Position numbers and translations under genes: made by a program
Origin: Barnesiella intestinihominis YIT 11860
Lineage (GTDB): Bacteria > Bacteroidota > Bacteroidia > Bacteroidales > Barnesiellaceae
Length of the DNA stretch: 64,000 nucleotides
Direction of reading: 5' to 3'
Assembly (NCBI RefSeq): GCF_000296465.1
Contig: NZ_JH815203.1
Coordinates: 124,001 to 188,000, forward strand
The notes under the pieces: model-generated
Databases searched by the model: none
What the model was told of the DNA's origin: nothing
Seen by the model: only the letters and a program-made list of their open reading frames with translations
Part shown: positions 22,814 through 32,330 of the stretch, piece by piece
How the letters are laid out: every line of letters begins with the position of its first letter
Position numbering within the stretch: the first letter of the stretch is position 1

Positions 22814-22821
22814 TATCTTTG
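22814..22821 (+). promoter_or_regulatory. -7 box of the sigma-54 activator gene
   Basis: Exact TATCTTTG. Transcription would begin about 22828, which is at or past the ATG at 22827. The coding start is therefore better placed at 22848. Confidence 0.65.
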
Positions 22822-22847
22822 CACGCATGAGTAAGAATGAGAATATT

Positions 22848-24185
22848 ATGAATAAGGTTCTAATCATCGACGATGAACCACAGATAAGACAGTTATTAGC
22901 CCGCATTTTAGGGCTGGAAGGATATGAAGTTTTACAGGCAGGAGACTGTAAAGCGGCAGTAAAACAAATGGAGTATTCTCCCAATGTTATCTTATGCGAT
23001 GTTTTTCTCCCCGACGGGAATGGTGTAGATTTCATAAAAACAATAAAAAAAATATCGCCCGAATCGGAAATCATTTTATTAACAGCCCACGGAAATATAC
23101 CCGACGGGGTACAAGCCATAAAAAACGGAGCCTTCGACTACATAACCAAAGGTGACGACAATAACAAAATTATTCCTCTGATTAGTCGGGCTATGGAAAA
23201 AGCTCGAACTAACGGAGTAAAAAATCGTCCCGAAAAAGAAACCTTTCAGCAATATTCATTCAATTCTATTCTTGGTCAGTCAAAGCCTTTGCTGGAAGCT
23301 ATCGCGTTGGCACGAAAAGTGGCATCAACCGATGTACCGGTTCTTTTAACCGGAGAGACCGGTACAGGAAAGGAAGTTTTCGCCCAAGCGATTCACCACG
23401 AGAGCAAACGAAATAAAGGAAATTTCGTTGCAATAAATTGTTCGGCATTTAGCAAAGAGCTCTTGGAAAGCGAAATATTCGGACATAAAGCAGGCTCCTT
23501 TACCGGAGCCTTGAAAGACAAAAAGGGACTTTTCGAAGAGGCTCACAACGGAACGATATTTTTAGATGAAATCGGAGAAATGGCGATAGAGTTGCAAGCC
23601 AAGTTGCTTCGAGTATTAGAAACCGGAGAATATATCAAAATAGGTGAAACCAAACCGACATCTGTAAATGTTCGTATTATTGCAGCAACCAACCGAAACT
23701 TGCCGGAAGAAATAAATGCAGGGCATTTCAGGGAGGATTTGTTTTATCGGCTGTCGGTTTTCCAAATACATTTACCACCTTTGAGAGAACGTCCGGGAGA
23801 TATTAGGCTTCTAACCGAAGCGTTTGTACAATCCCTATCCGAAAAAATGACCCATTCCTCGAAAACGGTTTCCAAAGCATTCATCGACATGCTCGAACAA
23901 CAAGAATGGAAAGGCAATGTGCGTGAACTCAGAAACGTTATCGAAAGAAGTCTTATTGTTTGTGAAAATGATGAGTTACACCCCGAAGATTTACCCATAG
24001 AAATACAAAATGCAGCTTTTAAGGAAAAAAGTAGTAATAATAGTGGTTTCGAATTATCGGCTATGGAAAAACGCCACATTGCCCGAGTACTAGACTATAC
24101 GAACGGCAATAAAACCGAAGCTGCAAAACTCCTAAAAATAGGACTTACCACTTTATATCGAAAAATAGAGGAATATAAACTCTAA
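22848..24185 (+). CDS. NtrC-family sigma-54-dependent response regulator, probable activator of the kdp operon
   Basis: 445 residues from ATG 22848; earlier ATGs lie at or before the predicted transcript start. The receiver domain (1-115) has phosphoacceptor D51 in ILCDVFLPDG. The AAA+ domain has Walker A GETGTGKE, the sigma-54-contact loop GSFTGA (the common form is GAFTGA), and Walker B GTIFLDEIGEM. A C-terminal Fis-type HTH reads NKTEAAKLLKIGLTTLYRKIEEY. It activates RNA polymerase with sigma-54. The next transcription unit starts with a -24/-12 promoter 118 bases after its stop and encodes Kdp plus a histidine kinase, so a role as the KdpE replacement is a strong inference. Confidence 0.92.
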   Translation: MNKVLIIDDEPQIRQLLARILGLEGYEVLQAGDCKAAVKQMEYSPNVILCDVFLPDGNGVDFIKTIKKISPESEIILLTAHGNIPDGVQAIKNGAFDYITKGDDNNKIIPLISRAMEKARTNGVKNRPEKETFQQYSFNSILGQSKPLLEAIALARKVASTDVPVLLTGETGTGKEVFAQAIHHESKRNKGNFVAINCSAFSKELLESEIFGHKAGSFTGALKDKKGLFEEAHNGTIFLDEIGEMAIELQAKLLRVLETGEYIKIGETKPTSVNVRIIAATNRNLPEEINAGHFREDLFYRLSVFQIHLPPLRERPGDIRLLTEAFVQSLSEKMTHSSKTVSKAFIDMLEQQEWKGNVRELRNVIERSLIVCENDELHPEDLPIEIQNAAFKEKSSNNSGFELSAMEKRHIARVLDYTNGNKTEAAKLLKIGLTTLYRKIEEYKL

Positions 24186-24220
24186 TTCTTTTCAAAATAA
24201 TACACAACCCTACCAAAATG

Positions 24221-24255
24221 AAAAGGGAGTATCTGTTCGCCAGATGCTCCCTTTT
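24221..24255 (+). terminator. Strong terminator between the activator gene and the kdp operon
   Basis: A 15-bp stem with a single G-T pair (24221-24235 with 24241-24255), a 5-base loop and flanking A and T runs. It isolates the activator from the kdp promoter, so kdp expression depends on its own start site. Confidence 0.88.
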
Positions 24256-24302
24256 CATTTATAATACTAATTATGAACCAATTAAAATATTCAAAAACAA
24301 TA

Positions 24303-24320
24303 TTGGCACAACTTTGGCAT
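24303..24320 (+). promoter_or_regulatory. Sigma-54 (-24/-12) promoter of the kdp operon
   Basis: TTGGCAC at 24303-24309 and TGGCAT at 24315-24320 place GG and GC exactly 10 bases apart, as in the consensus TGGCACN5TTGCW. Only one of the four central bases around the -12 GC differs. The start site would be near 24330, 40 bases before the first small gene. No TAnnTTTG box fits here, and an NtrC-family activator gene is immediately upstream. The activator-binding site is not evident by eye. Confidence 0.82.
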
Positions 24321-24369
24321 ATCCCAAACCGAAAAAAAATAATTTAGTATTCACTTAAAAAAATGTAAC

Positions 24370-24468
24370 ATGGAATTTGACGCATTAGGTTTTGGAGTTT
24401 GTATACTCAGTGGAATTGCCTGTTTCTGGCTCTTCTATAAGTGCATAGACTGGTTTGAAAAAATTTAA
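24370..24468 (+). CDS. Small single-span membrane peptide at the head of the kdp operon
   Basis: 32 residues: an acidic start (MEFDALGFG), one hydrophobic span (VCILSGIACFWLFYKCI) and a short charged tail. It lies 40 bases after the predicted transcription start and 17 bases before kdpF. I do not recognise a family. Position suggests an accessory peptide of the Kdp complex or a translated leader. No clear ribosome site is visible, as is normal in this phylum. Confidence 0.55.
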   Translation: MEFDALGFGVCILSGIACFWLFYKCIDWFEKI

Positions 24469-24485
24469 TTAAAAGGAGATTTAAC

Positions 24486-24566
24486 ATGTACACTGCATTA
24501 TTTATTATCAGCGTAATTATGTTCGGGTATCTGATGTATGTATTAGTGAAACCCGAAAAGTTTTAG
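24486..24566 (+). CDS. kdpF: KdpF, small subunit of the potassium-transporting ATPase
   Basis: 26 residues: a single hydrophobic helix (ALFIISVIMFGYLMYVLV) followed by KPEKF. The closing YxxxxLVKPEKF pattern is the family signature. KdpF stabilises the KdpABC complex in the cytoplasmic membrane. It lies 22 bases before kdpA. An AAAAGGAG ribosome site is visible just upstream. Confidence 0.85.
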   Translation: MYTALFIISVIMFGYLMYVLVKPEKF

Positions 24567-24588
24567 TCATTTATAAAGATTAAACACA

Positions 24589-26295
24589 ATGAATACAGAG
24601 ATATTAGGTGTTATTGCACAAATTGTCCTGATGGTCGTACTCGCCTACCCCATCGGGAAATACATTTCAAAGGTTTTCAAAGGTGAGAAAGTTTGGTCGG
24701 ACTTCATGACTCCCATCGAAAAAATCATGTACAAACTGGGAGGTGTCGATCCAACAGAAGAGATGAACTGGAAACAATTCCTGAAAGCATTGCTCGTGAT
24801 AAACCTCTTTTGGTTTTTCTGGGGAATGATATTGTTAGTTTCTCAGGGAGTACTGCCCCTAAATCCAGACGGCAATTTAGGACAGTCTGTTCATCAGGCA
24901 TTCAACACATGTATCAGCTTCCTCGTGAATTGTAACTTACAACATTATAGCGGAGAGAGTGGGCTAAGCTATCTCACCCAGTTATTCGTTATCATGCTGT
25001 TCCAATTCATTACCGCTGCAACCGGTATGGCGGCAATGGCGGGTATCATGAAGGCATTGGCCGCTAAAACGACCAAAACAATTGGAAACTTCTGGTACTT
25101 CTTAGTAAGGAGCTGTACCCGTGTTTTACTTCCTATTTGCCTCGTTATCGGATTCATACTGATTATAGAAGGGACCCCTATGGGCTTTGACGGAAAGATG
25201 GAAGTGACTACAATAGAAGGACAAACACAATATGTATCGCAAGGTCCTACTGCGGCGATAGTTCCCATCAAACAATTAGGTACGAATGGAGGTGGATACT
25301 TCGGAGTAAATTCATCGCACCCTCTTGAAAATCCTACCTATCTCACTAATATGATAGAATGTTGGGCCATATTGATTTTACCTATGGCTATGGTATTCGC
25401 TTTTGGGTTTTACCTTAAACGAAAGAAATTAGCATACAGTATTTTCGGAGTAATGCTATTTGCTTACTTAGCCGGGGTATGGATAAATGTATCCCAAGAA
25501 ACAGGTGGCAACCCGCGCATTGACGCAATGGGTATAGCACAAGACAACGGTGCTATGGAAGGAAAAGAAGTCCGACTGGGTTCTGCTGCTACGGCGCTTT
25601 GGAGCGTGACAACCACCGTTACTTCCAACGGCTCTGTAAACGGTATGCATGACTCTACCATGCCTCTCTCCGGCATGATCGAAATGCTGAACATGCAAAT
25701 CAATACATGGTTCGGTGGTGTAGGTGTAGGTTGGATGAACTACTTTACTTTTATCATTATCGCCGTATTTATCAGTGGATTGATGGTTGGTCGTACCCCC
25801 GAATTCCTCGGCAAAAAAATAGAAGCTCGAGAAATGAAAATCGCTACGATCGTTGCCTTGTTACACCCATTTGTCATCTTAGTAGGAACCTCATTAGCGG
25901 CCTATTTATATGTTCATGCACCTTCCTTTGTCGAAAACGAAGGCGGTTGGTTGAATAACCCGGGATTCCACGGACTAAGCGAAATGCTTTATGAATTTAC
26001 TTCCTGTGCCGCCAATAATGGTTCCGGTTTCGAGGGATTGGGTGATAATACATGGTTCTGGAACTACTCTTGCGGTATAGTATTGATACTCAGCCGATAC
26101 CTTCCCATCGTAGGACAAGTTGCCATTGCAGGATTATTAGCCAATAAGAAATATGTACCAGAAAGTGCAGGAACCTTAAAAACCGATACAGTTACTTTCG
26201 GTGTCATGACCTTCGCTGTCATCTTTATCGTTGCAGCTCTGTCATTCTTCCCGGTTCAAGCATTAAGTACTATTGCAGAACATTTCAGCTTATAA
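24589..26295 (+). CDS. kdpA: Potassium-transporting ATPase potassium-binding subunit KdpA
   Basis: 568 residues with about ten membrane spans, full family length. Selectivity-filter loops are recognisable: [19 protein letters not shown] and [12 protein letters not shown], plus the first-repeat loop with [15 protein letters not shown]. KdpA forms the channel-like pathway that takes up K+ with high affinity when external K+ is scarce. KdpB starts 16 bases after its stop codon. Confidence 0.97.
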
Positions 26296-26311
26296 TAACA
26301 GAACGATAGAT

Positions 26312-28345
26312 ATGAAAAATAATAAATCAGCTTCTTTATTTGAAAAAGAGCAAGTTTTAACGAGCTTAAAACAATCATTCGTTAAATTGAATCCTCGAAT
26401 CATGGTGAAAAACCCCATCATGTTCACGGTAGAAGTTTGTACAGCCATTATGTTCCTTGTGATGATTTATTCCATCTTTGACAACGCTCAAGGTTCATTC
26501 GTGTACAATGCATGGGTTTTTGTTATCTTGTTTATCACACTATTATTCGCCAACTTCGCCGAAGCTATCGCTGAGGCCCGAGGCAAAGCACAGGCTGATA
26601 GTTTGAGAAAAACCCGCGAAGAAACTCCGGCAAAACTACTTGTCAATGGACAAATAAAAACGACAAGTAGCTCTCAACTGAAAAAAGGTGATGTATTTAT
26701 CTGTGAAGCAGGTGATACCATACCTGCCGATGGTGAAATCATAAACGGATTGGCTTCTATCGACGAAAGTGCGATTACCGGAGAAAGTGCTCCTGTAATT
26801 CGAGAAGCCGGTGGTGACAAAAGTTCAGTGACCGGTGGAACAAAAGTCCTTTCGGATCGCATCGAAGTGCTTGTCACACAACAACCGGGAGAAAGTTTCT
26901 TGGACAAAATGATTGCTCTCGTCGAAGGCGCTTCCAGACAAAAAACTCCTAACGAAATTGCGCTGACAATCCTTTTAGCCGGCTTCACATTGGTATTCCT
27001 AATCGTATGTGTAACCCTTAAACCGTTTGCCGACTATACAGGAACTGTTATTACAATAGCATCTTTCTTATCGTTGTTTGTCTGCCTTATCCCGACGACA
27101 ATCGGAGGTTTGCTTTCAGCTATCGGTATAGCAGGAATGGATAGAGCTCTGAGAGCAAATGTAATTACCAAATCGGGAAAAGCAGTAGAAACTGCCGGAG
27201 ATATCGATACTCTCCTTTTGGATAAAACAGGAACTATTACAATCGGAAACCGTAAAGCTACCCATTTCTATCCCGCCAACGGTCTGGAAAATCATGCTTT
27301 TGCCGAAATTTGTATGATGTCGTCTCTATCCGATGAAACACCCGAGGGTAAATCTATCGTAGAACTGGCTCGTGAATCGGGTTTAAGAGTACACAACTTG
27401 AATACAACCGGTAGCAAGCTTATCAAATTCAGTGCCGAAACAAAATGTTCCGGTGTAGATTTAGCAGACGGTACTCGGATTAGAAAAGGGGCAGCAGAAG
27501 CTATTCGAAAAATTGCTCAAAACGCAGGCTACGAAATTCCACAAGATTTGGAAAATCGTATCACAGAGATTTCAAAAAATGGAGGAACACCTCTTGTAGT
27601 TAGCGTCAATGAAAAACCTGCCGGTGTCATAGAATTACAAGATGTTATCAAACCGGGAATACAGGAACGGTTCGAACGGTTACGTAAAATGGGAGTTAAA
27701 ACAGTCATGGTTACCGGGGATAACCCATTAACAGCCAAATACATTGCAGAAAAAGCCGGTGTAGATGACTTCATTGCAGAAGCCAAACCCGAAGACAAGA
27801 TGAACTACATCAAGAAAGAACAAAGTGCCGGTAAACTGGTAGCCATGATGGGCGACGGAACCAACGATGCTCCTGCTTTGGCCCAAGCGAATGTTGGTGT
27901 AGCTATGAATAGTGGAACTCAGGCAGCCAAAGAAGCTGGAAACATGGTAGACTTGGACAACGATCCGACGAAATTAATCGAAATTGTAGAAATCGGGAAA
28001 CAATTATTAATGACTCGCGGAACCCTTACCACATTCTCCATCGCCAATGATGTCGCAAAATACTTTGCCATTATTCCGGCTCTATTCATGATAGCCGTAC
28101 CAGAATTAGCTTCACTGAACATTATGGGATTACATAGCCCCGAAAGTGCTATTCTATCGGCCATTATTTTCAATGCAATCATTATTCCCATTTTGATTCC
28201 ATTGGCTTTAAGAGGTGTTCAATACAAGCCTATCGGAGCTTCGGCTTTACTCCGCCGCAACCTGCTCATTTACGGATTAGGTGGTATAATAGCTCCATTC
28301 GTCGGCATTAAACTCATAGATTTAGTAATAGGATTATTCTTTTAA
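26312..28345 (+). CDS. kdpB: Potassium-transporting ATPase ATP-binding subunit KdpB
   Basis: 677 residues from ATG 26312; the frame is open further upstream into kdpA but no start there fits. This is a P-type ATPase: actuator loop ITGES, phosphorylation site D304 in [10 protein letters not shown], nucleotide-binding residues around KGAAEAIRK, and hinge [19 protein letters not shown] followed by [12 protein letters not shown]. The serine in ITGES is the regulatory site in E. coli KdpB and is conserved here. It powers K+ import through KdpA. Confidence 0.97.
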
Positions 28346-28356
28346 TAAAAGCAACA

Positions 28357-28932
28357 ATGAAAAATTTCATAAAATCAATCAGGCTAACATTAGTTTTCTG
28401 CCTTTTCTTCTCAGTATTTTATATACTGATATTATGGATATTCGCCCAATTCGCAGGGCCAAACTCTGGAAACGCCGAGGTTGCGACCTTAGATGGGAAA
28501 GTAGTGGGTGCAGCCAATGTAGGGCAAGTCTTCACCGAAGACATCTATTTCTGGGGCCGTCCCTCTTGTGCCGGAGATGGATATGATGCCAGTAGTTCTG
28601 CCGGTAGCAACAAAGGACCTACGAACGAAGAATACTTGGCAGAAGTAGAAACTCGTATCGACACCTTCTTGGTACACCACCCTTATTTGGAACGTAAAGA
28701 TGTACCGGCAGAAATGGTCACAGCCAGTGGTTCTGGTCTCGACCCTGACATCACGCCAGAAAGTGCATACGTACAAGTAAAGCGTGTTGCCGCAGCCAGA
28801 AATATGGACGAAACTACCGTAAAAGAAATAGTAGACCAAACAATTGAAAAACCATTTTTAGGATTATTCGGAACAGAGAAAGTAAACGTATTAAAATTGA
28901 ACATTAATTTAGAAAATTATGAAAACAAATAA
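28357..28932 (+). CDS. kdpC: Potassium-transporting ATPase subunit KdpC
   Basis: 191 residues: one N-terminal membrane span (LTLVFCLFFSVFYILILWIFAQ) and a periplasmic domain with GQVFTEDIYFWGRPSCAGDGYD, SGSNKGPTNEEYL-like motifs and the C-terminal FLGLFGTEKVNVLKLNINLE. It stabilises the KdpAB complex. Its last codons overlap the next gene by 14 bases, which suggests translational coupling. Confidence 0.96.
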   Translation: MKNFIKSIRLTLVFCLFFSVFYILILWIFAQFAGPNSGNAEVATLDGKVVGAANVGQVFTEDIYFWGRPSCAGDGYDASSSAGSNKGPTNEEYLAEVETRIDTFLVHHPYLERKDVPAEMVTASGSGLDPDITPESAYVQVKRVAAARNMDETTVKEIVDQTIEKPFLGLFGTEKVNVLKLNINLENYENK

Positions 28933-29734
28933 AAACATTTCAGCAATAGCTATCATGAAAAAGAAACAATCAATAGATAAAGAAGGAGCCAGACTCATCA
29001 GAGCATTGATAATCATTTCGATTATAGGGCTCCTTGCCATGTTTACCAATAAAGCATCTGCCCAAGTACGATTCAATGTACAAGGAGATTTAGTCAGTTC
29101 CTATGTGTGGAGAGGTATGTATCAAACAGGCGCTAGTATTCAACCGACTTTGAGTTTCAGTGTTGAAAACCTATCGTTGACGGCATGGGGATCCACCGAC
29201 TTCGATGGTTACCGGAATGGTAATATTCCCTCTGCAAATAAAGAACTTGACTTGACTCTGGCTTATACCTTCCCAAAATTGGGACTAACAGTTTCGGTTG
29301 CCGATATGTGGTGGGCCGGACAAGGAGCTGGAAAATATTTCGATTTCAATAACAAAACGACAGCTCATCATTTCGAAGCAAGTCTTGCTTATGTACTTCC
29401 GGTAGAAAAATTTCCTCTTTCGATCGCATGGTACACCATGTTTGCCGGTATGGATAAAAATGAAAAAGGCGATAAAAACAACTACTCGTCTTATGTAGAA
29501 CTCAATTATCCGTTCAGTGTAAAATCGGTCGATCTCAATGTAACATGTGGTATAGTACCTTATAAAGCACCTCAATACTATACCAACGGATTTGCCGTTA
29601 CTAATGTAGCATTGAAAGGAAGCTACGCAATTAAAATCACAGATTCGTTCTCCCTTCCGATATTTTCACAAGTAATATGGAACCCTCGTATGGAAGATGC
29701 TCATATCGTATTCGGAATCACTCTTAAACCATAA
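28919..29734 (+). CDS. Outer-membrane beta-barrel protein in the kdp operon, TorF/porin-like
   Basis: 271 residues if translation starts at 28919; a start at 28955 (MKKKQSIDKEG) is possible. A signal sequence ends near NKASAQ. The mature part begins VRFNVQGDLVSSYVWRGMYQ, the pattern of small 12-14-stranded barrels of the TorF/DUF family, with alternating strands to the C-terminus. It overlaps kdpC by 14 bases and lies 8 bases before the KdpD-like gene, so it belongs to the operon. An outer-membrane pore for K+ under starvation is inference only. Confidence 0.7.
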   Translation: MKTNKNISAIAIMKKKQSIDKEGARLIRALIIISIIGLLAMFTNKASAQVRFNVQGDLVSSYVWRGMYQTGASIQPTLSFSVENLSLTAWGSTDFDGYRNGNIPSANKELDLTLAYTFPKLGLTVSVADMWWAGQGAGKYFDFNNKTTAHHFEASLAYVLPVEKFPLSIAWYTMFAGMDKNEKGDKNNYSSYVELNYPFSVKSVDLNVTCGIVPYKAPQYYTNGFAVTNVALKGSYAIKITDSFSLPIFSQVIWNPRMEDAHIVFGITLKP

Positions 29735-29742
29735 CAGGGAGA

Positions 29743-30876
29743 ATGGATATAATTGAAAACGAAAAAAATGTACAATATTTTCTCGACTTGATAAAAAAAT
29801 CGAGGAGAGGTAAGTTTAAACTCTACATCGGCATGATTGCCGGTGTAGGGAAATCTTATAGAATGCTACAAGAGGCCCACGAACTCTTAGAAAACGGAGT
29901 AGATGTAAAAGTGGGTTTCATAGAGACACACGGACGTACCGGTACAGAAGCTATTTTACAAGGTATTCCTGTTATCCCGAGAAAAAAAATTTTCTACAAA
30001 GGGAAAGAATTGGAAGAGATGGATTTGGATGCTATCCTTCAAATACGTCCCGAATTGGTCATTGTCGATGAACTGGCTCATACCAACGTCGAAGGCAGTC
30101 GCAATGAAAAGCGATGGCAAGACGTCATGGAGTTACTCGATGCCGGTATCAATGTTATATCGGCAGTAAATATCCAACATATCGAAAGCCTGAACGAAGA
30201 GGTGCAGGAAATATCAGGAATCGAAGTTCGAGAACGAATTCCCGATCGTGTTTTGGAAGAGGCCGATGAAGTCGTAAATATAGACCTCACAGCAGAAGAA
30301 TTGATCGAACGGTTAAAAGCCGGGAAAATATATAGGCCGGAAAAAATAGAATTGGCATTGAATAATTTTTTCAAGGCCGAGAATATTTTACAACTACGAG
30401 AACTCGCACTCAAAGAAGTTGCTTTACGGGTCGAAAAAAAAGTAGAAAACGAACTCCCCTTAGATACATCTCACGTACGTCATGAAAAATTCATGGCGTG
30501 CATCAGTTCCCACGAAAAAACGCCCCGCAAAATCATTCGACGCTGCGCTCGATTGGCTACACGATATAACACAAAATTTTTCGTACTATATGTACAAACA
30601 CCCAAAGAGGATCCCGATCGCATCTCGCTGGCAGATCAGCGACATCTGTTAAACCATTTCAAATTAGCCACTGAATTAGGTGGAGAAGTCATACAGGTAC
30701 ATTCCCCGCACATTCTCGAAAGCATTATAAAGGTCGCAATCGAAAAACAAATTACAACAATATGTACAGGAATTCCAGCACTGAAATTGCCCCAAACCAT
30801 ATTTACGGTGTCCAAATATAAAAATTTCATGAAATCTTTATCCGAGAACAATATAGATTTAATTATCTTAGCCTAA
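29743..30876 (+). CDS. kdpD: KdpD N-terminal sensor half (KdpD domain plus Usp domain), without kinase core
   Basis: 377 residues. Residues about 20-230 are the KdpD sensor domain with its P-loop IGMIAGVGKS, ETHGRTGT and the hallmark VIVDELAHTNVEGSRNEKRWQD and VNIQHIESLN. A universal-stress-protein-like domain follows (KFMACISSHEKTPRKIIRRCARL). The protein then stops: there are no membrane spans and no histidine kinase. In E. coli these parts are fused in a single KdpD of about 890 residues. Here the kinase is encoded by the next gene, 14 bases downstream. Confidence 0.9.
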   Translation: MDIIENEKNVQYFLDLIKKSRRGKFKLYIGMIAGVGKSYRMLQEAHELLENGVDVKVGFIETHGRTGTEAILQGIPVIPRKKIFYKGKELEEMDLDAILQIRPELVIVDELAHTNVEGSRNEKRWQDVMELLDAGINVISAVNIQHIESLNEEVQEISGIEVRERIPDRVLEEADEVVNIDLTAEELIERLKAGKIYRPEKIELALNNFFKAENILQLRELALKEVALRVEKKVENELPLDTSHVRHEKFMACISSHEKTPRKIIRRCARLATRYNTKFFVLYVQTPKEDPDRISLADQRHLLNHFKLATELGGEVIQVHSPHILESIIKVAIEKQITTICTGIPALKLPQTIFTVSKYKNFMKSLSENNIDLIILA

Positions 30877-30890
30877 TAAAAATACCCGTC

Positions 30891-32330
30891 ATGAATATAA
30901 AAACAAAGTTGCTTTTAAGTATAGGGTTACTGACCGGAATGATTATTCTGCTGGTCTCCTTATCAGTTATCTATTTACAGATGCTGACGGCTGCCGAACC
31001 AGACAGCCCGATAGCTTCGACAGGCTTAAAACAAGCCGTTGTATGGGTGGCAATTATCGGAGGCATCTGCATAGTCTGCGGTGTCACATTAGCTATCTGG
31101 CTTCCTCAATCGATAAATAGACCTATCAAGGAGCTAACCGACGGTATCCTCGAAATAGCGAATCGCAACTATGAAAAAAGGCTGAATATATCGGATAAAA
31201 ACGAAGAATTTAAAAATGTGGTCGATAGTTTCAATAGAATGGCTCAACACTTGTCCGAATACAGATCTACCACCCTATCGACACTACTGGCACATAAAAA
31301 ATTTCTCGAAGCAATTATCAATAGCATCAGCGATCCCATAATAGGATTAGATCCAGACCGCAAAATACTTTTCATAAATAGTGAAGCTCTGAACATACTG
31401 AATCTGAAAAAAGAAAACACAATCTTCAAATCGGCCGAAGAGATTTCTTTGAAGAATGATTTATTAAGGAAATTAATACGAGAACTGGTTTCTCCCAATC
31501 CTCAGAAAGAGCCTATCAAAATATATGCCGACAATAAAGAAAGTTACTTCAAAGCCTCCTATATAGAAATAGACAACACGAATCACGACAGTGAAGAACC
31601 CGAAAAACTGGGGCACGTAATTATATTGAAAAACATCACGGAGTTTAAAGAGCTGGATTCTGCGAAAACAACATTTATCTCGACGATATCTCATGAATTG
31701 AAGACTCCCATATCAGCCATTATGATGAGTTTGCAATTATTGGAAGACAGACGTATCGGGTCTCTTAACAAAGAACAAGAGCAACTCTCCCAAAGTATTA
31801 AGGAAAACGGAGAACGGTTGCTCAATATCACCGGAGAATTGCTGAACATGACCCAAGTAGAAGCCGGAAAACTACAACTGATGCCCAAGATAACCCGGCC
31901 CATAGAATTGATCGAATATGCGATCAAGGCCAATCAGGTACAAGCCGACAAATTCAACATACACATCGAAGTCGATTATGACGAAAATACAAAGAAACTA
32001 TTCGTCGACAGCGAAAAAATAGCATGGGTACTTACCAATCTTGTAAGCAATGCCATACGTTATTCCAAAGAAAACGGTCGCGTCATTATCGGCACTTACC
32101 AAGACGGCAATATGGTCGAAATCTATGTACAAGATTTTGGGAAGGGAATCGACCCTCGCTATCATCAAAGCATATTCGACCGTTATTTCCGAGTGCCGGG
32201 AACAAAAGTACAAGGCAGCGGATTAGGATTGTCTATATCCAAAGATTTTGTAGAAGCACATGGGGGGACTCTTTCCGTAGAAAGCGAATTAGGAAAAGGG
32301 AGCCGTTTTATACTAAGATTGAAATCATAA
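30891..32330 (+). CDS. Membrane histidine kinase of the kdp cluster
   Basis: 479 residues. Two membrane spans (about 7-31 and 49-71), HAMP (about 72-124), a PAS-like domain (about 133-255) and HisKA with H268 in FISTISHELKTP follow in order. HATPase_c has N-box NLVSNAIRYSKENG, G1 DFGKGI, F-box IFDRYFRVPG and G2 GSGLGLSI. It has the kinase core that the preceding KdpD half lacks, although its sensor layout (HAMP-PAS) is unlike classical KdpD, which has four spans and GAF. The likely partner is the NtrC-type regulator at the other end of the cluster. Confidence 0.88.
   Translation: MNIKTKLLLSIGLLTGMIILLVSLSVIYLQMLTAAEPDSPIASTGLKQAVVWVAIIGGICIVCGVTLAIWLPQSINRPIKELTDGILEIANRNYEKRLNISDKNEEFKNVVDSFNRMAQHLSEYRSTTLSTLLAHKKFLEAIINSISDPIIGLDPDRKILFINSEALNILNLKKENTIFKSAEEISLKNDLLRKLIRELVSPNPQKEPIKIYADNKESYFKASYIEIDNTNHDSEEPEKLGHVIILKNITEFKELDSAKTTFISTISHELKTPISAIMMSLQLLEDRRIGSLNKEQEQLSQSIKENGERLLNITGELLNMTQVEAGKLQLMPKITRPIELIEYAIKANQVQADKFNIHIEVDYDENTKKLFVDSEKIAWVLTNLVSNAIRYSKENGRVIIGTYQDGNMVEIYVQDFGKGIDPRYHQSIFDRYFRVPGTKVQGSGLGLSISKDFVEAHGGTLSVESELGKGSRFILRLKS

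Follow-up and report, generated by a model that had tools for sequence, protein, structure and literature searches.

How is the kdp operon of Barnesiella intestinihominis YIT 11860 controlled? Kdp is an emergency potassium pump and the textbook target of the KdpD/KdpE two-component system, and no OmpR-type gene of the kind represented by KdpE was found in the kdp cluster of the window, that is, of the whole stretch of 64,000 nucleotides analyzed here. All genes of the cluster lie on the + strand, in the order NtrC-type response regulator (22848..24185), gap, 32-aa open reading frame (ORF; 24370..24468), kdpF (24486..24566; PF09604, TIGR02115), kdpA (24589..26295; PF03814), kdpB (26309..28345; TIGR01497, with the start ATG 26309 preferred to TTG 26273), kdpC (28357..28932; PF02669), porin-like ORF (28919..29734), KdpD-like ORF (29743..30876), and histidine kinase (30891..32330). 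The comparisons described below, which are based on sequence, make it very probable that kdp in this bacterium is driven by a sigma-54 promoter at 24303-24320, with the NtrC-type regulator as its switch and a split KdpD-like sensor and kinase controlling that regulator.

Two collections of relatives were compared with the window: named loci retrieved by KdpA search (at least 77, nearly all labelled Bacteroidales), and a survey of 296 genomes of the phylum, in which 86 (own genome included) gave KdpA; from these, 80 regions of 79 genomes were analyzed, with G295, G260, G241, G040, G213, and G041 left out.

Several genes around kdpFABC in the window differ from the canonical set. The 32-aa ORF, the first after the promoter and located before kdpF, reads MEFDALGF...DWFEKI and gave no Pfam or NCBIfam match. 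Of at most 158 loci searched, 87 (65 from the named set plus the window) have an ORF with a DWFEKI-like ending 5' of kdpA; L166, L172, and L175 gave none. The 32-aa ORF may encode a small membrane protein that works with the Kdp pump and has escaped annotation. The porin-like ORF sits inside the predicted operon, 3' of kdpC, and, with no Pfam match, shows a weak match to the TorF-family putative porin TIGR02001 (E 0.0017, below the cut-off). BLAST detected relatives of it in 56 of the 77 named loci listed versus 1 of 80 phylum regions, and a dedicated outer-membrane entry for K+ is a possible function. The KdpD-like protein carries the ATP-binding domain of KdpD (PF02702, 4e-94) and a weak Usp match, and no kinase domain; its best NCBIfam model, KdpD_non_kinase, scored 362.8 bits, below the 550-bit cut-off. 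This is the one KdpD domain in the whole genome, in which no full KdpD with input and kinase domains, as in the canonical system, was found. The kinase gene that follows encodes a HAMP-PAS-HisKA-HATPase protein according to Pfam, and its product is the proposed partner of the regulator.

The preliminary description of this DNA had recognized in the gene upstream of kdp an NtrC-family activator with a GSFTGA loop, and the domain search agrees: the protein consists of a receiver (PF00072), an AAA+ sigma-54 interaction domain (PF00158) with the GSFTGA loop, and a Fis-type helix-turn-helix (HTH_8, PF02954), the complete architecture of an NtrC-type enhancer-binding protein. GAFTGA or GSFTGA was present in 115 of 123 regulator ORFs, the other eight giving no pattern match. 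An in-frame ATG at 22827 is also a possible start of the gene. Pattern scanning located, 5' of the gene on the + strand, a match (TATCTTTG, 22814..22821) to TAnnTTTG, the reported -7 consensus of the Bacteroidetes primary sigma factor (PMC7366714). Since this box would leave almost no leader for ATG 22827, the start at 22848 originally assigned to the gene appears plausible. The regulator gene is probably read from a housekeeping promoter.

At the genome level, one rpoN gene (a single PF00309 match) and seven PF00158 matches were detected, four of the latter being full-length sigma-54 activators. Three OmpR-type regulators exist, all on another contig, in agreement with the earlier observation that the cluster itself has none. 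An intact kdpE elsewhere in the genome, which had been named as evidence that would overturn the sigma-54 proposal, was looked for among them: they are only 27-30% identical to E. coli KdpE, versus 44-50% for the KdpE proteins that neighbor kdp in the surveyed genomes of the phylum. In a tree of 82 of 126 regulators, those at least 45% identical to the window's form one group (support 100/99), apart from the three other activators of the genome; because membership was predefined by this identity, the unity of the group is partly built in.

The promoter itself was read directly in the gap. TTGGCAC (24303..24309, + strand) and TGGCAT (24315..24320, + strand; consensus TTGCW) constitute the -24 and -12 elements as originally described, with GG at 24305-24306 followed after ten bases by GC at 24317-24318, an exact GG-N10-GC within TTGGCAC-N5-TGGCAT, and with transcription predicted to start near 24330. 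Together with this spacing, the presence of rpoN and a candidate activator site about 100 bp upstream correspond to what is expected of a sigma-54 promoter. The element differs from YTGGCAC-N5-TTGCW by one mismatch (T to G in -12) and is the best of nine matches in the window with at most two mismatches; the number of such matches is not enriched in the window (9 versus 12.3 expected by chance). The 3.44-Mb genome has a single TTGGCAC-N5-TKGCAT, against 0 for the control, and the looser YTGGCAY-N5-TKGCW is not enriched genome-wide (7 versus 9 for the backwards control). Counting matches in the window or the genome was dropped as proof, being not above chance. As the motif alone does not exceed chance, relatives were compared, and it is this comparison that makes the case.

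Scored strictly (at least 10/12), GG-N10-GC precedes kdpA in 42 of the 72 named loci listed, window included, with 4 on the reverse strand and 2.2% of shuffles; in 6 of 63 other loci of the regulator or KdpD-like type in the wider phylum, with 0 on the reverse strand and 2.9% of shuffles; and in none of 13 KdpE loci (12 from the phylum, one from E. coli), with 0.4% of shuffles. Seven 'other' loci (two of them reaching 10/12) and three short ones were set apart in this scoring. A strict GC at -12 proved to miss many relatives and was relaxed to TGGCAY-N5-TNG or to GGCA alone. Indeed, many relatives carry TGGCAY-N5-TTNG, in which the C of -12 is replaced by T or A, and in family f6 the -12 element is hard to see. 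The -12 element thus reads TGGC in the window (24315-24320) and TTNG in many relatives, so that substitutions at -12 may be acceptable to the sigma-54 of this group. Mapped transcription starts in Flavobacterium psychrophilum are reported to support -24/-12 elements at sigma-54 promoters of the phylum (PMC9723704).

The candidate activator site is a palindrome, ACCCTACCA-AAA-TGAAAAGGG (24207..24227, centre 24217). It lies about 113 bp 5' of the predicted start and matches 16/18 positions of ACCYTTYCA-N3-TGRAARGGT, the palindrome shared among relatives. Visual inspection of some of the later-scored loci had first drawn attention to this sequence. In an alignment of 70 loci on the -24 element (78 of the 79 loci having the element, cut at 75% identity, so that loci lacking it do not enter the counts), it recurs upstream of -24 at 14/18 or better in 53 loci versus 0.57% of shuffles, and at 16/18 or better in 39 versus 0 of 3,500 shuffles; the fixed T and G near -12 in this alignment result from the selection of loci. 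The best palindrome centre lies 84-89 bp before TGG in 48 of the 70 loci and 107-109 bp before it in 13. In a second count, limited to loci with KdpA of at least 50% identity and excluding KdpE loci and short upstream regions, a palindrome (at least 13/18) plus downstream GGCA was found in 62 of 76 Bacteroidales loci and 30 of 37 others, the opposite-strand control giving 9 scattered distances. The distance from palindrome to element is 85-89 in 49 of the 62 Bacteroidales loci and 107-108 in 12, mainly labelled Rikenellaceae; outside Bacteroidales it is 95-98 in 19 of 30 (mainly families f5 and f6), with the remaining 11 scattered. These clusters are about one helical turn apart, with similar vector lengths (0.75-0.77) for any period from 10.3 to 11.0 bp, and, as the distances follow lineages, it is lineages and not loci that count as independent units.

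Across 1.45 Mb of the named loci listed, 57 palindromes of at least 15/18 fall in the 600 bp 5' of kdpA, against 20 at other places. In the own genome, a palindrome with one mismatch occurs solely at kdp, and two mismatches are found at three other places, with 2 for the control pattern. These results suggest that 24207-24227 is the probable binding site of the activator, i.e., its enhancer. Between palindrome and promoter, an IHF-like site (TATGAACCAATTA, 24272..24284, + strand, 8 of 9 to WATCAANNNNTTR) starts 32 bp before TGG. Sites of at least 8/9 are present in 22 of the 70 aligned loci (7.9% of shuffles), exactly 31 bp before TGG in 15 of these 22, the window being one base off; they show no strand bias (22/70 versus 21/70 on the other strand).

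The combination of regulator and KdpD-like sensor extends well beyond this genome. The preliminary description had suggested searching other Bacteroidales kdp clusters for the same promoter and regulator; within the sequence covered, the regulator was found in 59 of the 77 named loci listed (with KdpD-like genes in 63 and the kinase in 65), and the promoter in its strict form in the 42 of 72 given above. KdpE (longer than 180 aa, above 35% identity) was found in 0 of the 77. Among named loci longer than 20 kb, the regulator is present in 47 of 54, and two of the seven exceptions are L006, where the gene is partial, and L059, where it is split. The phylum survey includes 31 genomes of the same class, a number that excludes the own genome and G041 (sub-cut-off match): 30 have a regulator of at least 45% identity at kdp, all 31 a KdpD-like gene, and none KdpE at kdp. 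The in-class genome without the regulator in the stretch covered is that of L186; a second kdpA region of G245 (L205), with KdpA alone, is outside the 30/31 count. Loci with full KdpD plus KdpE number 13, all outside the window's class. Also outside the class, five loci have the same regulator type and 24 more a distant one (below 45% identity), 23 of the latter in family f18. The distant regulators fall outside the main group of the tree, and no composite of palindrome and element was found at kdpA of these 24 loci. Family f18 (L178-L208, same phylum) represents a separate NtrC-type lineage, mostly with the order regulator-kinase-kdpABC-KdpD-like (about 560-630 aa). Thus, the replacement of KdpE control by NtrC-type/sigma-54 control that was first proposed for this genome is supported by comparison and is not peculiar to it, since it recurs in 30 of 31 in-class genomes; such control looks class-wide.

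A search for the composite of palindrome and element on both strands of the 158 loci identified 71 loci with it upstream of kdpA and 18 places elsewhere, against 1 in reversed sequences. Eight of the 18 precede trkH, two directly precede kdpD-like genes, one precedes a KUP potassium transporter, and seven were taken as false or unexplained. The composites at trkH and kup include L023 3872-3892 and those near 15491 in L006, near 14584 in L029, and near 5655 in L167. The trkH genes with a composite sit before a kdpD-like gene and were identified by Pfam TrkH in L006, L023, and L029 and by BLAST to L023 in the others; the composites of L023-L025 are near copies (18/18), and the other five score 13-14/18. 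The composites of L032, L035, L037, and L041 were rejected as chance matches at one gene start, with nearly the same element in all four; the gene in L041, and the one at the same place in L071, resembles an aspartokinase gene. Those of L051, L151, and L205 were set aside as false or unexplained.

Genome-wide, the composite without its left half-site gave six matches (2 in 393 and 4 in 395 genomes, in overlapping samples; backwards control, 0): four at kdp (one of them L166), one before the gene of a histidine kinase sharing 41% identity with that of the window, and one unrelated. This low number probably reflects even genome sampling, in which most genomes lack kdp. The histidine kinase, in L223 (5194-6945), is preceded by the palindrome ACCCTTCCAAAATGAAAAGGT plus a -24-like element, and no kdp gene was found in the 10 kb covered. 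On the whole, it seems likely that KdpE has given way in Bacteroidia to a single lineage of NtrC-type activators, and that these govern a set of potassium genes through sigma-54 and one palindrome. The regulon would comprise kdp, with trkH, kup, and the sensor genes added in some lineages; the palindrome would stand about 8, 9, or 10 helical turns from -24, according to lineage, and in some genomes would double as one arm of the activator gene's terminator.

Other explanations of the gap have been considered. It is very unlikely that the -24/-12 element is a chance match and that transcription of kdp depends on the primary sigma factor of Bacteroidetes or on polymerase running on from the regulator gene. 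The loose matches, no commoner than in the genome control, speak for such a reading; the element, kept over many loci together with its distance to the palindrome, speaks against it. Sigma-70-like matches exist at chance number (33 promoter-like and 13 terminator-like in the window versus 32.2 and 12.8 in shuffles), whereas TAnnTTTG is absent from 24101-24620, a weak argument given the rarity of such a box in so short a stretch; the T tract of the hairpin discussed below is poor, so that some read-through is possible. Least likely of all is that TTGGCAC and TTTGGCAT constitute an 11-bp direct repeat for an OmpR-type regulator encoded elsewhere. The halves do resemble a direct repeat in the window and in many Bacteroides loci, but the second one is TTGC or TTCG in many relatives, which breaks the repeat; and although the genome has three OmpR-type genes, and L022 has one (25% identical to KdpE) beside a kinase on the other strand near kdp, no close KdpE was found in the genome, the named loci listed, or the in-class genomes.

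A further reading, even less probable than a chance promoter match, sees in the palindrome nothing more than a rho-independent terminator serving the regulator gene, and no binding site. A strong terminator between regulator and kdp was part of the preliminary description, and a strong 20-bp hairpin does occur at 24216..24260 (+ strand; -30.3 kcal/mol, z -10.3), its left arm being the right half of the proposed enhancer; a similar inverted repeat is visible by eye in some relatives, e.g., L166 and L051. As a terminator this hairpin is only possible, given its poor T tract and its absence from the list produced by the terminator scan, and the region holds the probable enhancer. The two readings were compared in the 68 named loci with enough upstream sequence, 48 of which have a same-strand regulator within 3.5 kb: of the 20 without one, 18 keep the palindrome (at least 12/18) at 85-88 or 108 bp from -24, and it is therefore not merely the terminator of the regulator gene. 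In addition, the sequence itself is conserved and not just its pairing, and the palindrome stands at comparable distances before trkH, kup, and kdpD-like genes, even if five of the eight trkH cases reach no more than 13-14/18.

According to the sigma-54 model favored here, low potassium would be sensed by the split sensor, formed by a soluble KdpD-like protein and a separate membrane histidine kinase, and sensing would lead to phosphorylation of the NtrC-type regulator. The phosphorylated regulator would bind the palindrome at 24207-24227, the DNA between palindrome and promoter would bend at the IHF-like site, and the GSFTGA loop of the AAA+ domain would open the sigma-54 complex. Sigma-54 RNA polymerase would then transcribe the small ORF, kdpFABC, the porin-like gene, the kdpD-like gene, and the kinase gene as one operon from 24303-24320, starting near 24330, in such a way that induction would raise the sensor genes too.

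A precedent exists in Desulfovibrio vulgaris Hildenborough, in which DVU3334 is reported to act as a sigma-54-dependent response regulator on the kdp operon it belongs to (PMC3333781; listed also PMC4641369), so that sigma-54 control of kdp is not wholly new. In both cases a sigma-54-dependent regulator with a GAFTGA-type loop would target kdpFABC (in D. vulgaris within the operon DVU3334-3339) and the sensor is split, there into an ORF with K+ sensor and UspA and a separate kinase ORF (PMC3333781); this likeness of a sigma-54-type regulator at kdp with split sensor and kinase is by description. In contrast, the D. vulgaris regulator is described as lying inside its own target operon, which two other regulators target too, whereas the window's is a separate upstream gene, as in the 48 of 68 loci with a same-strand regulator nearby. 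The system shares with E. coli KdpD/KdpE (L110) a two-component control of kdpFABC and a related KdpD input domain, but E. coli uses an OmpR-type regulator and a one-piece KdpD kinase instead of an NtrC-type regulator and a split sensor. With NtrC and AtoC it shares the receiver-AAA+-Fis HTH architecture, an upstream palindromic site, and a sigma-54-type promoter; unlike them, the window's regulator is linked to potassium genes, and its best NCBIfam matches, NtrC and AtoC among them, are all below cut-offs.

Among the matches listed from open-licence PubMed Central literature, sigma-54 control of kdp in Bacteroidetes was not found. One paper remarks in passing that in E. coli PTSNtr 'and thus' Sigma-54 control kdp (PMC3162934), and another lists kdpA and kdpC of B. 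thetaiotaomicron in an iron table, with the values 0.147 and 0.437 beside them and no bearing on potassium (PMC10434189). As far as these searches show, the class-wide extent, the enhancer with its spacing, and the connection with trkH and kup are new with respect to that literature. If true, control of kdp in a major gut and environmental group would be by sigma-54 activation, an ATP-driven switch with little basal leakage, and the palindrome would provide a ready binding site for reporters. The system would also offer a clean case for studying why a class of regulator was exchanged and how the spacing of an enhancer shifts between lineages.
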